A stretch of DNA of 36,345 nt from Candidatus Cloacimonadota bacterium (GTDB lineage: Bacteria; Cloacimonadota; Cloacimonadia; Cloacimonadales; Cloacimonadaceae), in assembly GCA_029565535.1 (NCBI GenBank), contig JAKQNZ010000182.1, positions 1 through 36,345 of the forward strand, given 5' to 3'. The position numbers and the translations under genes were made by a program. Below the pieces are notes generated by a model. It did no database searches. It had not been told where the DNA came from and worked only from the letters and a program-made list of their open reading frames with translations. Shown here piece by piece: positions 1,119 through 28,227 of this stretch (position 1 is its first letter; every line of letters begins with the position of its first letter).

Positions 1119-1285
1119 CGTTTACAGGAGCACGGATTTTTATTCTACCACCGAGGACACTGAAGGCACCGAAACAATCTATATGAAACCTATTAATTAT
1201 CCTTGCCTCAGTTCCTCATTGCTTCAAATATCTCTGCTTTTCTCTGTATTGAAATGAAATAAGAACCCTGATTGGCACGGATAAT
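1119..1285. repeat. Intergenic spacer with degenerate 'cacagag'-type repeat
   Basis: The spacer between rnc and the radical SAM gene contains a low-complexity block (about 1144-1172, CCACCGAGGACACTGAAGG and following) resembling a decayed CCACAGAGGACACAGAGG-type repeat. At 1232-1259 it has a stretch reading CTCTGCTTTTCTCTGTATTG, which matches the inner part of the inverted repeats around the GxxExxY gene at 14109-14791 with about one mismatch over 20 bases. No gene is seen. It ends about 27 nt before the radical SAM start codon. Confidence 0.6.
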
Positions 1286-12842: not shown

Positions 12843-14036
12843 TTAAAGTCCCAATTCGTAAACCAGAGCGGCGTAAAAAGCGGCAGCCTTGGTAAGATGT
12901 TCCACAGGACAAGCTTCATTGGGGGCATGGGCATATACTTCGTTGCCAGGCCCCATCCCGATACAGGGAATGCCAAACATCCCTGCGATCGAAACGCCAT
13001 TCGTGGAGAAAGTCCATTTGTCTATAAAGGGTTCTGCAGAAAGAGTCTCGGAATAAGCTTTGGCGGCACTCTGCACATAAGGTGATTCCAAGGGAGTAAC
13101 CCAGGTGGGATAGTATTTCTCAGTGGGATACACCAAGCCGGTGAAAGCCGCTTCTTTGTAAGTCAGAACCTCAATTTCCGCTTCGGGATGCCCTGCCAGC
13201 CGGCAAGCCTCTTTTACCTCCGCCACCGCGCTATCCTTGGTTTCACCCCAGGTAAGCCTGCGATCGAGGTGGATCCGGGCACTATCCGGTACCGCACATT
13301 GGCTGGGTCCGGTGAAATATACTTCTGTTACACAAACGCTGCCTTTGCCCAAAAATTCGTCAACGTGCAGCCTTTCGTGCAGCTTTTCAATCTCCAGGGC
13401 AATGCGGCTGATCTTATAGATGGCGTTGTCGCCTCTTTCGGGAGCCGAGCCATGACATGACAGGCCTTTCACGTGCACCTGCATTTCCATGCGTCCGCGG
13501 TGGCCACGATAGATGTTCAGGTTGGTAGGTTCTGTGATTACAACCAGTTCAGGTTTGATCTCACCTTCCTTCAGGATATATTGCCAGCATAGCCCGTCGC
13601 AGTCTTCTTCCATCACTGTGCCGGTAAAATAAATGCTAAACTTGTCGCCTATCCCAAGGTCTTTAATGATCCTTGCAGCAGTCAGCATACTGGCCATTCC
13701 GCCTTCCTGATCAACGGTGCCGCGTCCCCAAACCTTGCCATCCTTCACATGGGCGTCAAAGGGATCAAAGTCCCACAGACTGAGGTCGCCTGGGTAAACG
13801 GTGTCGATATGGGCGTCGAAGGCTATCACTCTGGGGCCGTTTCCGATGCGGCCAATAACGTTTCCCAGGGGATCTATGTAGGCCTCGTCCATCCCAATCG
13901 CCTGCATTTCCTTCAAGATGCATTCCACCACTTCTTTTTCCTTGGTGGAAAAAGCGGGAATGCGCACCATATCCATCAAGAATCTGGTGCTGGTTTCTTC
14001 GTAGGCTTTGGCTTTCGCCATGATTTCTTTATACAT
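12843..14036 (-). CDS. ygeY: YgeY family M20 metallohydrolase
   Basis: This 397-residue protein is an M20/ArgE-DapE type zinc hydrolase of the YgeY group. Metal-binding motifs are AFDAHIDTVYPGD (H76, D78), GRGTVDQEGG (D109, E111) and MEEDCDG (catalytic E143/E144), with a C-terminal metal His in NEVYAHAPNE. The dimerisation domain begins near GHRGRMEMQVHVKGL. YgeY proteins hydrolyse an amide or N-carbamoyl bond; the gene occurs with ygeW, ssnA and selenium/molybdenum hydroxylases in clusters linked to anaerobic purine breakdown, though the exact substrate is not certain to me. AAGGAG stands 8 nt before the ATG. In the operon it follows ssnA but is separated from it by the inverted-repeat GxxExxY cassette. 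Confidence 0.92.
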   Translation of the reverse strand: MYKEIMAKAKAYEETSTRFLMDMVRIPAFSTKEKEVVECILKEMQAIGMDEAYIDPLGNVIGRIGNGPRVIAFDAHIDTVYPGDLSLWDFDPFDAHVKDGKVWGRGTVDQEGGMASMLTAARIIKDLGIGDKFSIYFTGTVMEEDCDGLCWQYILKEGEIKPELVVITEPTNLNIYRGHRGRMEMQVHVKGLSCHGSAPERGDNAIYKISRIALEIEKLHERLHVDEFLGKGSVCVTEVYFTGPSQCAVPDSARIHLDRRLTWGETKDSAVAEVKEACRLAGHPEAEIEVLTYKEAAFTGLVYPTEKYYPTWVTPLESPYVQSAAKAYSETLSAEPFIDKWTFSTNGVSIAGMFGIPCIGMGPGNEVYAHAPNEACPVEHLTKAAAFYAALVYELGL

Positions 14037-14108
14037 TGGAGAACTCCTTAATTAATATTATTTACACAGAGGGTGTTTTGCGGTAGGGGCTGCAGTTCCG
14101 CTGAGATC

Positions 14109-14190
14109 GAAGGTTTTGATGTGTAGAACGTTACTACGTTTTCTTCTCAACACAGAGAAAAGCAGAGTTACACAGAGAAAAGCAGAGGAA
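14109..14190. repeat. Left arm of 82-bp inverted repeat
   Basis: This 82-bp segment is the reverse complement of 14710-14791 with two differences (80 of 82 matching; mismatches at arm positions 10 and 63). Its outer part reads GAAGGTTTTGATGTGTAGAA, with the short palindrome AACGT-TACT-ACGTT; its inner part is a double CACAGAGAAAAGCAGAG unit, repeated about 21 bp apart. The pair encloses the GxxExxY gene. It lies downstream of that gene and 73 nt upstream of ygeY. Confidence 0.95.
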
Positions 14191-14248
14191 TCCTGGTTAA
14201 GGTTACAGGGTTTTAGATCTTTTTTTGTTATGGAGGATAGGGTATTAT

Positions 14249-14686
14249 TCATTTTCCGTGCTCGATGAGCAGGCTGTCCATATCATGGTTAGAAAGCTTG
14301 CCATAGTTAAGTCTGATACGCTGGATGCCGTCTCTTAACAGAGGAACGTTAAAATTGATCAAAAGACCCAGAGGCAGGTTGCTTAACACAAGATAGGACA
14401 TTAGCTGAGCCTCGAAAACAGGAAGCATCTCTTTGACAGCCTTCAATTCCACGATGATCGCATTCTCCACTATCAGGTCAGCCCGAAACACACTTTTACA
14501 CTCTGAGCCTTTGTAAATGATCGGGATAGGGACTTCGCTTTTATAGCGCAACCCCCTGAACTGCAATTCCTTGCAGAGGCATTCGTGATATACTTCTTCC
14601 AGTAAACCTGGACCAAGGTTCCTGTGAACCTCGATGCAAGCCCCAATAATCCTTCCACTTAGAGTATTTAGTGTATTTTCATCCAT
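14249..14686 (-). CDS. GxxExxY family protein
   Basis: The 145-residue protein contains the family motif GPGLLEEVYHECL (G-x-x-E-x-x-Y) at about residues 25-37, followed by the YKGSECKSVFRADLIVENAIIVELKAV region, where D-x(n)-ExK spacing (D69, E79, K81) recalls PD-(D/E)XK nuclease-like folds. The C-terminal NLPLGLLINFNVP segment is also typical. The function of the family is not established. The gene is on the same strand as the purine operon but sits inside an 82-bp inverted repeat (14109-14190 and 14710-14791) that has nothing to do with its neighbours, so it looks like an inserted cassette. Such genes are often found with repeats of this type in environmental genomes. Confidence 0.9.
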   Translation of the reverse strand: MDENTLNTLSGRIIGACIEVHRNLGPGLLEEVYHECLCKELQFRGLRYKSEVPIPIIYKGSECKSVFRADLIVENAIIVELKAVKEMLPVFEAQLMSYLVLSNLPLGLLINFNVPLLRDGIQRIRLNYGKLSNHDMDSLLIEHGK

Positions 14687-14709
14687 TCCTTAACCTTTTT
14701 GTTTATCAA

Positions 14710-14791
14710 TTCCTCTGCTTTTCTCTGTTTAACTCTGCTTTTCTCTGTGTTGAGAAGAAAACGTAGTAACGTTCTACACATTAAAACCTTC
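14710..14791. repeat. Right arm of 82-bp inverted repeat
   Basis: This arm is the mirror of 14109-14190, matching at 80 of 82 positions in inverted orientation. The inner end contains two tandem CTCTGCTTTTCTCTGT units (14713-14728 and 14733-14748). Outside the arms the flanks share only weak similarity (a GGCAGG/ATCC-type hairpin at about 14799-14815 on this side), and I could not see a convincing target-site duplication. It lies 23 nt upstream of the GxxExxY start and downstream of the ssnA stop. Confidence 0.95.
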
Positions 14792-14852
14792 ACTTTGAGG
14801 CAGGATCGGCATCCTATACTACCATTCATCTCTGTCCCGGTGTGGAACGAAC

Positions 14853-16181
14853 TTAGAACCTGTCCCACAGTTTCGCAGCCAGCTCTCTGGACCTGGCCTT
14901 GATTTCGGCTTCGTCGATATCGAGCAGCAGTTCCCCATTCCACATCAGCACCTTGCCTCCACAAATAGTGGCATCCACTCTGGCTTGGGAAATACCGTAG
15001 ATAATGTGTCCCAGCCAGGTGTTTTCGTCCAAGGGTGTATGAGGATCGTAATCAACCACGATGAAATCTGCAGTACCGCCTTCGGCGATGGTTCCATGCT
15101 TTGCACCCCAGTATTTCTGAGCGATCAGGGGATTATTGAATATCAAAGTGGAGGCAATTTCCATGAATGCAGAGGAAGGATTGTTTTGCTTTAAGTGCTG
15201 AGCCCAAAGGCCAACGCGCAGTTCTTCCAGCATGTTCACGGTCATCGCATCGGTTCCCAAGCCTACTTTAATCCCCAGTTCCTGCATTTTGCAAACATCG
15301 GCGATGCCAACGGCGTTATTAAGATTGCTTTGGGGATTTGTAACTACAGCCGCACCCCTTTCCGCAACCAGCATCATTTCCTTGGGATTCAGATGCACTC
15401 CATGGGCCAGGATGCTGTGGGAATTTATCAAGCCAAAGTCGTTCAGCCTTTCCACCACTCGCTTTCCAAAGTGCTCGATATTAAAACGCTGGTCGGATTC
15501 CGCTTCTGCAGCGTGAATGTGAGTTCCGCACTCCAAGTCTTGCACCAGGCTTGAAATCGTAGCCAGGGTTTTGTCGCTGAGAGTAAAGGCCGCATGCATG
15601 CCAAACAGCGCTTTCAGGTCTTCGTCTTCCGCCATCTCGCACTGCTTTATCCAATCTGCGTTTTCCTCTATGCCGGCTTTACAGACTTGCTCGCCGTCGC
15701 GATCGGATACTTCGTAGCAAAGGCTTGCTTTCAGCCCTGCTTGCTTCACTGCTTTGGCTATCTGATTCAAGGAGCCGGTAACCGCAAAAGGTGAGGCATG
15801 ATGGTCGATGATCGTGGTAGTGCCTTTACGGATTGCGGACAAAGCAGAGATCAGAGCGCTGATATAATTATCCTCAGCCAGCAGTTTTTTGTCCAGGCGC
15901 CACCAAAGGTTATTCAGCACTTCATTGAAGTCCTTGGAAGGAGCAGCTTTCCCCAGCCCGGTTACCAGGGTTGAATAGAAGTGATGATGCGCATTGATCA
16001 GGCCAGGCATGATCAATTTTCCTGCTATGTCGATCCTTTCACATTCTTCCGTGTCAAACTGCCCGGCAGTAGCAATTTTACTGATTCTACCATCCTCCAC
16101 CAGCATAGCCATGCCTCTCAGGATGGGTTTTTCGGCTGTGAAAGTGAGGATATCCCCACCCAAAACTATGTATCTGTTCAT
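14853..16181 (-). CDS. ssnA: SsnA family putative aminohydrolase
   Basis: The 442-residue protein is a metal-dependent amidohydrolase of the SsnA/guanine-deaminase-like group. It has an N-terminal beta-sandwich, the metal motif GLINAHHHFYS (H65-H67), THIHAAEAESD, ILAHGVHLN and the metal Asp in GLGTDAMTVN, then a C-terminal sandwich strand GTADFIVVDYDP. Members deaminate or hydrolyse purine-like rings; the E. coli ssnA gene lies in the yge/ygf/xdhD region connected with anaerobic purine degradation. It is the first gene of the - strand operon, with AGGAGATAAT directly before its ATG, and is divergent from mtnA. The substrate is not deducible here. Confidence 0.92.
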   Translation of the reverse strand: MNRYIVLGGDILTFTAEKPILRGMAMLVEDGRISKIATAGQFDTEECERIDIAGKLIMPGLINAHHHFYSTLVTGLGKAAPSKDFNEVLNNLWWRLDKKLLAEDNYISALISALSAIRKGTTTIIDHHASPFAVTGSLNQIAKAVKQAGLKASLCYEVSDRDGEQVCKAGIEENADWIKQCEMAEDEDLKALFGMHAAFTLSDKTLATISSLVQDLECGTHIHAAEAESDQRFNIEHFGKRVVERLNDFGLINSHSILAHGVHLNPKEMMLVAERGAAVVTNPQSNLNNAVGIADVCKMQELGIKVGLGTDAMTVNMLEELRVGLWAQHLKQNNPSSAFMEIASTLIFNNPLIAQKYWGAKHGTIAEGGTADFIVVDYDPHTPLDENTWLGHIIYGISQARVDATICGGKVLMWNGELLLDIDEAEIKARSRELAAKLWDRF

Positions 16182-28083: not shown

Positions 28084-28227
28084 ATTAGGTAGCGGCTGAT
28101 TACAATCCCCCGGTTTTTCTTTTCTACGCATCAAAACCAGTTATCAAAGGCAGGCTCTCCAGCCTGTTCACAGATACACCTCTGCTTTTATCTGTGTTGA
28201 AAATGACATAAATTAAGGAGTATATAA
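28084..28227. other. Spacer with hairpin and repeat motif before the PLP enzyme gene
   Basis: The spacer holds a 6-bp hairpin CAGGCT-CTCC-AGCCTG (28151-28166) without a T-run. At 28179-28206 is the stretch CTCTGCTTTTATCTGTGTTG, matching the inner motif of the GxxExxY inverted repeats with one mismatch in 20. AAGGAG stands 7-12 nt upstream of the next ATG. No gene is seen. Confidence 0.6.

Follow-up and report, generated by a model that had tools for sequence, protein, structure and literature searches.

A GxxExxY nuclease gene between inverted arrays of short units: a probable small mobile element of bacteria and archaea

The stretch of DNA considered here, 36,345 nucleotides of contig JAKQNZ010000182.1 from a Candidatus Cloacimonadota bacterium and referred to in its whole length as the window, carries at positions 14109-14791 a single gene of the GxxExxY family enclosed by two inverted arms. 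The segment is rather probably (at a probability of roughly 0.6) a copy of a small cross-domain mobile element, whose nuclease would act on its cognate arms in a manner resembling that of the repetitive extragenic palindromes (REP) and their REP-associated tyrosine transposases (RAYT). Mobility of the gene and its arms as a unit is well supported by sequence comparison; that the nuclease itself does the moving, we infer. Comparison of genomes shows gene and arms to be present or absent at a given site, to move whole and to end at the outermost units of the arms. The same comparison shows no detectable target duplication, placement at operon junctions with the gene oriented along the operon, and derivatives that consist of an arm pair without the gene.

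Inverted arms around the GxxExxY gene

The arms of the window element span 14109-14191 (forward strand, downstream of the gene) and 14709-14791 (reverse strand, upstream of the gene); a repeat search of the window finds them to be 83 nt long, 98% complementary and separated by 517 nt. The single open reading frame (ORF) that they enclose is the GxxExxY gene (14249..14686, reverse strand, 145 aa), which encodes a predicted PD-(D/E)XK nuclease with a Cas4/lambda-exonuclease-like fold. Each arm is composed of an outer part (14109-14149 and 14751-14791, respectively) and two inner 18-nt units ACACAGAGAAAAGCAGAG, situated at 14150-14167 and 14170-14187 in the downstream arm and at 14713-14730 and 14733-14750 in the upstream arm, the copy at 14713-14730 having one mismatch. 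A small palindrome, AACGTtactACGTT, is situated in the outer arm part. When up to three mismatches are allowed, six copies of the 18-mer are found in the window against 0.02 expected. A single window arm folds no better than its shuffled versions (z -1.4). The original prediction had described near-identical inverted arms around one gene, each with an outer part that holds a palindrome and an inner part of tandem units, and both the arrangement and the make-up of the arms are confirmed.

This arrangement is a feature of the family. A scan of contigs provided 80 GxxExxY loci from species of about 18 bacterial and archaeal phyla, 78 of them testable, and 464 other ORFs from the same contigs served as controls. 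Within flanks of 250 bp, an inverted repeat with a score of at least 24 is observed for 83% of the 78 genes and 8.2% of the controls, and one with a score of at least 40 for 51% and 1.3%, respectively. The combination of the left flank of one locus with the right flank of another yields an inverted repeat in 2.6% of cases, and direct repeats are found in the flanks of 23% of GxxExxY genes versus 10% of controls. A second sample, drawn from the phylum of the window and made up mostly of more divergent genes, gives inverted repeats in 79% of cases versus 3.5% for shuffles. The arms are nearly always tandem C-R-C-N-R-A-G units with spacers of 1-3 nt, directed toward the gene and often ending on the outside in TTCACC, and the element has a median size of 530 bp from arm to arm. 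Other protein clades have other unit tails, namely CRCNRATT, CACGAATG, CACGAAA, CGCTGATG and ACAGGATT. We also note that the arms of five loci (L111, L134, L102, L065 and L208) themselves hold hairpins of the form array-loop-inverted array, which look like the result of the insertion of a gene-less element at each side of the gene.

The nuclease, its units and their joint movement

The ORF of the window matches the GxxExxY profile TIGR04256 (E 1.7e-43, 147.7 bits against a cut-off of 35) and the PDDEXK_3 profile PF13366 (E 7.9e-42, 142.8 bits against a cut-off of 22); these profiles alone match, and an HUH (Y1) domain is not detected in the gene. Residues E30, D70, E80, K82 and Q94, which are the active-site residues of PD-(D/E)XK enzymes, are invariant among 55 homologues, so nuclease activity is probably retained. 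The AlphaFold model has a mean predicted local distance difference test (pLDDT) score of 90, and structure comparison places SSO0001, which we take to be a Cas4 protein, and LHK-Exo/lambda exonuclease as the nearest solved folds. A search by sequence gave no solved homologue. A role in defence or in phage biology was considered and set aside, as neither the PADLOC anti-phage defence profiles nor the PHROG phage-protein profiles match the protein. Viral contigs yielded 86 candidate stretches, none of which proved to be a real relative, and a distant homologue is present in one Halogranum virus (two records). Comparison of the window gene with its counterpart in genome G004 gave a saturated synonymous rate (dS), which limits the ratio of nonsynonymous to synonymous rates (dN/dS) for this pair.

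The unit type, defined as the letter after CRCNRA and read from the flanks alone, was mapped on the protein tree and compared with 200 shuffles. It changes 13 times on the GxxExxY tree against a shuffled mean of 49.2, with none of the 200 shuffles going down to 13, and the G-type unit accounts for 5 changes versus 41.6 in shuffles. The tree joins genes across phyla and domains, such as those of Geobacteraceae with Methanoperedens (Shimodaira-Hasegawa-like approximate likelihood ratio test, SH-aLRT, 99). Because the members span many phyla and different genomic sites, the agreement between units and tree is taken to mean that the gene and its type of unit spread together. The original prediction held that the cassette has no transposase of its own; this needs revision, as the gene between the arms is predicted to encode an active nuclease and its clades follow the sequence of the units in the arms, so that the GxxExxY protein is the leading candidate for the enzyme behind the mobility.

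The two arms of an element differ in a characteristic way. Arm-to-arm mismatch amounts to 1.4, 5, 1.0, 33, 9.5, 0 and 0.7% at the successive unit positions C, R, C, N, R, A and G, and to 17.7% outside the units. The units were defined by the motif in one arm and the alignments require some match; even so, the positions within a unit contrast strongly. Mismatches have no G-U bias (65 compatible and 69 incompatible). Conservation of the fixed letters while N varies points to a recognition motif rather than to base pairing or simple copying as the apparent constraint. The near-identity of the window arms had been read as a sign of recent insertion or ongoing correction; the likeness of arms is family-wide and strongest at motif positions, so recent insertion is not required.

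Evidence of movement comes from elements found twice in one genome. In the closed genome G008, 97%-identical elements are located at two unrelated sites, C1:799,633 (a head-to-tail dimer) and C1:807,121 (a trimer). The similarity begins precisely at CACGCAG and stops precisely at GCGTG, which are the outermost units; beyond them the two sites have different DNA, and neither has a target duplication. In G076, a pair with 83% identity starts at GCCGCGGAT, and the shared arm stops at ATCAGCGGC, beyond which the two copies have a short tail in common. That the similarity in both pairs is bounded by the outermost units argues that the cassette and its arms move as one, and the earlier suggestion of a discrete mobile cassette gains from a sister element that moved as a single arm-bounded unit. 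The head-to-tail copies, observed in G008 and G007, show that amplification or recombination takes place as well. Copies 1 and 3 of the trimer (L224, G008:C1:807,118-808,732) share, within the gene, an insert of about 100-150 bp that may be a further small repeat.

The sites themselves have few common features. Target-site duplications of 3-4 nt at the 78 loci are the same as random, and no gene recurs as a constant partner beside GxxExxY across the loci, where the neighbours vary. The gene is codirectional with its neighbours in 35 of the 38 loci at which both neighbours share a strand, and this orientation along the operon suggests that its expression is probably driven by the host operon. 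Two junctions recur, with names given by our reading of the sequences: mutA-like/mutB-like in Bacteroidaceae, and trpE-like/trpG-like in beta- and gammaproteobacteria (L078, L085, L086, L090, L105, L108, L140 and L152). The genes at the trp site are scattered over several positions of the tree with weak support, and the junction is either an insertion hotspot or a very old site.

Operon junctions and gene-less arms in relatives

The window element lies between an ssnA-like amidohydrolase (14853-16181) and a ygeY-like M20 peptidase (12843-14036), both on the strand of the GxxExxY gene, which is consistent with the two names given in the original prediction. The ygeY gene is found in each of the eight other genomes of the genus. 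Their readable ssnA-ygeY junctions number seven and all lack the GxxExxY gene, five of them holding roughly 100-200 bp of unrelated DNA; the empty sites that the prediction had proposed to look for thus exist in congeners at the level of the gene. The spacers of G006 and G007 are longer and contain arm-like repeats CTCTGCTTTTCTCTGTGTT without the gene. At the same junction in G004, G006 and G007 (L068-L070), purine-rich arrays GGTGAAAAAGTGGAAAGG and GTGATGAAGTGATGA are located after the stop codon and CTCTTTTACTCTTTG arrays ahead of the following gene; these may be additional families of such units.

The closest relative of the window gene, with 81% identity, is situated in G004 at a different junction, between a ygeW-like gene and a pyridoxal phosphate (PLP) enzyme. 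The host ygeY proteins of the two genomes are nevertheless 92% identical. Either the cassette has thus moved to another site within the genus, or ancient paralogues of it were lost differentially. Among 23 genomes compared at the ygeW/PLP junction, two of them only partly readable, seven hold a cassette, with differing arm sequences, G012 has a gene-less hairpin, and the window genome retains a half-arm relic, CTCTGCTTTTATCTGTGTTG (28180..28199, reverse strand). The remaining genomes have about 20-130 bp and no gene.

Arms also occur without the gene. Five gene-less arm pairs in -> <- order, about 100-240 bp apart, are present in the genus and family; as the earlier note had asked, arms were found elsewhere in relatives both with and without a gene. 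In a comparison of 125 genomes from the phylum, arrays of three CACAGAG units are present in 53 of 82 gene-bearing and 10 of 43 gene-less genomes (p 1e-5; Spearman 0.54; odds ratio 15.6 outside family f1), and the count of arrays in a genome increases with its count of genes. AATT-type arrays number 734 in total versus 2 for the reversed pattern, and are commoner in genomes with an AATT-type gene (p 3e-4); the excess of G-type arrays in AATT-gene genomes is weak (p 0.08).

The window holds further arm-like sequence. An array without a GxxExxY gene is situated at 1229..1259 (reverse strand), with a copy of the 18-mer at 1232-1249. Immediately before the ribosome-binding region of ygeY, an extra outer unit ACACAGAGGG is read from the sequence at 14064..14073 (forward strand), and alignment places a similar unit, CACCTCTGTG in gene sense, at the matching position of the related G004 element. 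A possible extra outer unit CTCTGTCCCGGTGTGG is seen on the ssnA side at about 14830..14845 (reverse strand), near the ssnA stop codon. Elsewhere in the window genome, matches to the arm are short and partial only, and its outer 31 nt have no other copy.

Mechanism, alternatives and known systems

In the mechanism that we propose, the Cas4/lambda-exonuclease-like GxxExxY nuclease would bind the cognate CRCNRA units in both arms and cut or resect at the ends of the element, upon which the element would be moved or copied and gene-less arm pairs could be moved in trans. The freed 3' strand might fold back through the inverted arms, which, as a speculation, may keep the arms alike.

Several points weigh against this interpretation. 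Binding and cutting of the arms by the nuclease are predicted from sequence patterns. Between about a sixth and a third of the family lacks clear inverted arms. No empty site is resolved to the exact nucleotide, as the intergenic DNA of sister species is too diverged; at the ssnA-ygeY junction, that of congeners does not align. The genome-level correlations between arrays and genes ignore kinship among the genomes, and G022, G019 and G029, of the window's family, hold dozens of arrays of the cognate type with no GxxExxY gene detected, as if after loss of the nuclease.

Such array-rich, gene-free genomes, together with arrays that occur without the gene and the recurrence of the gene at fixed operon junctions, are also what would be expected if independent repeats, moved by another enzyme, trap host-useful GxxExxY genes as passive cargo and the nuclease is uninvolved. 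We consider this unlikely, as the arms are nearly always directed at the gene, no other constant gene lies nearby, unit type follows the GxxExxY tree and array number correlates with gene number. Gene-less arrays could alternatively be the targets of a homing-type process, in which the nuclease cuts arrays elsewhere and the cassette is copied by recombination into array-holding sites only. The lack of target duplication, and the occupation of the trpE-trpG-like and ygeW/PLP junctions by genes from several tree positions, agree with such a process; the G008 sites and the G076 pair, however, end at the outermost units with no array beyond, a pattern that a wholly replaced array would leave too, and we judge homing to be distinctly improbable.

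The inverted arms invite two further explanations. Any transcribed inverted repeat can pair, and the codirectional placement at operon junctions would suit an RNA-level element whose arms pair in the operon transcript, so that a double-strand RNase excises the gene and the insertion is harmless; intervening sequences of ribosomal RNA (rRNA) likewise carry a small ORF (PMC4990558). The RNA-hairpin reading is disfavoured by the lack of G-U bias, by mismatches that follow motif position, with N mispairing freely (33%), by the absence of an Rfam match and by a location outside rRNA, and its probability is very low. Still less credible is an invertible switch, in which recombination between the arms flips the single gene enclosed by them and turns expression on or off. 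Inversion of the segment had been envisaged in the original prediction and finds no favour in the orientations, which across species are 35 codirectional versus 3 opposite; no recombinase is located nearby, and the arms are short in most members.

If the proposed action of the nuclease on its arms is true, a lone Cas4-type PD-(D/E)XK nuclease would drive a process that resembles transposition, and no DDE, HUH, serine or tyrosine recombinase would be needed. For a common family of "protein of unknown function" from about 18 phyla, this would provide a definite role together with a DNA motif of its own, and for the short tandem intergenic arrays of many environmental genomes a possible origin. 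A broader proposal is that GxxExxY elements constitute a new class of autonomous mobile DNA that spans both domains, in which a minimal Cas4/lambda-exonuclease-like nuclease, acting alone on inverted arrays of a short cognate unit, moves itself and has seeded the common intergenic CACAGAG, CACGAATT and CACGGATT arrays of environmental genomes; this is tentative and falls somewhat short of even odds. In the open-access literature, with closed-access papers and preprints outside the search, no mention of GxxExxY concerns such an element, and the array sequences appear only in unrelated animal-biology papers, where they are not discussed; the element is apparently undescribed.

Among known systems, the intervening sequences of 23S rRNA with an S23-protein ORF share an inverted repeat around a small ORF (PMC4990558), whereas the GxxExxY element lies between protein genes, encodes another protein family and has no sign of RNA pairing. 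Cas4/lambda-exonuclease nucleases, including the Cas4-like genes of casposons (PMC4046053), resemble GxxExxY in predicted fold and active-site residues, but GxxExxY is stand-alone and minimal, with its own inverted arrays, no recombination partner and, in contrast to the casposon, a single gene and no Cas1 integrase. As in miniature inverted-repeat transposable elements (MITEs) and insertion sequences, autonomous and gene-less copies have terminal inverted repeats in common; unlike these, the GxxExxY termini are degenerate arrays, target duplication is absent, and no DDE, serine or tyrosine transposase is found in the element, whose sole gene is PD-(D/E)XK. Rpn/YhgA-like recombination-promoting nucleases are PD-(D/E)XK enzymes of another family and suspected DNA mobilisers, and are not known to carry cognate inverted arrays.

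The closest parallel is provided by RAYT/REP, for which inverted repeats around the gene, coevolution and a correlation of copy number have been described (PMC2817692). RAYT, REP and the REP doublets that form hairpins (REPIN) share with GxxExxY a nuclease gene between cognate inverted repeats, coevolution of gene and repeat, repeats scattered on their own where the gene is missing, a copy number that correlates with the gene, and the lack of target duplication (PMC2817692, PMC3116915). In contrast to the HUH Y1 domain of RAYT, GxxExxY is a PD-(D/E)XK protein; its arms are tandem units of 7-8 nt rather than single palindromes of 20-40 nt tagged GTAG or CGTC; and it occurs in both domains, in about 18 phyla, where one genome can hold several copies that are unlike one another. 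As the HUH domain and the palindrome features are absent, the GxxExxY element is not a member of RAYT/REP. We regard it as a REP/RAYT-like variant with a substantial chance of deserving a class of its own. If the action of the nuclease on its arms were confirmed, the REP/RAYT lifestyle would have been invented a second time, independently.
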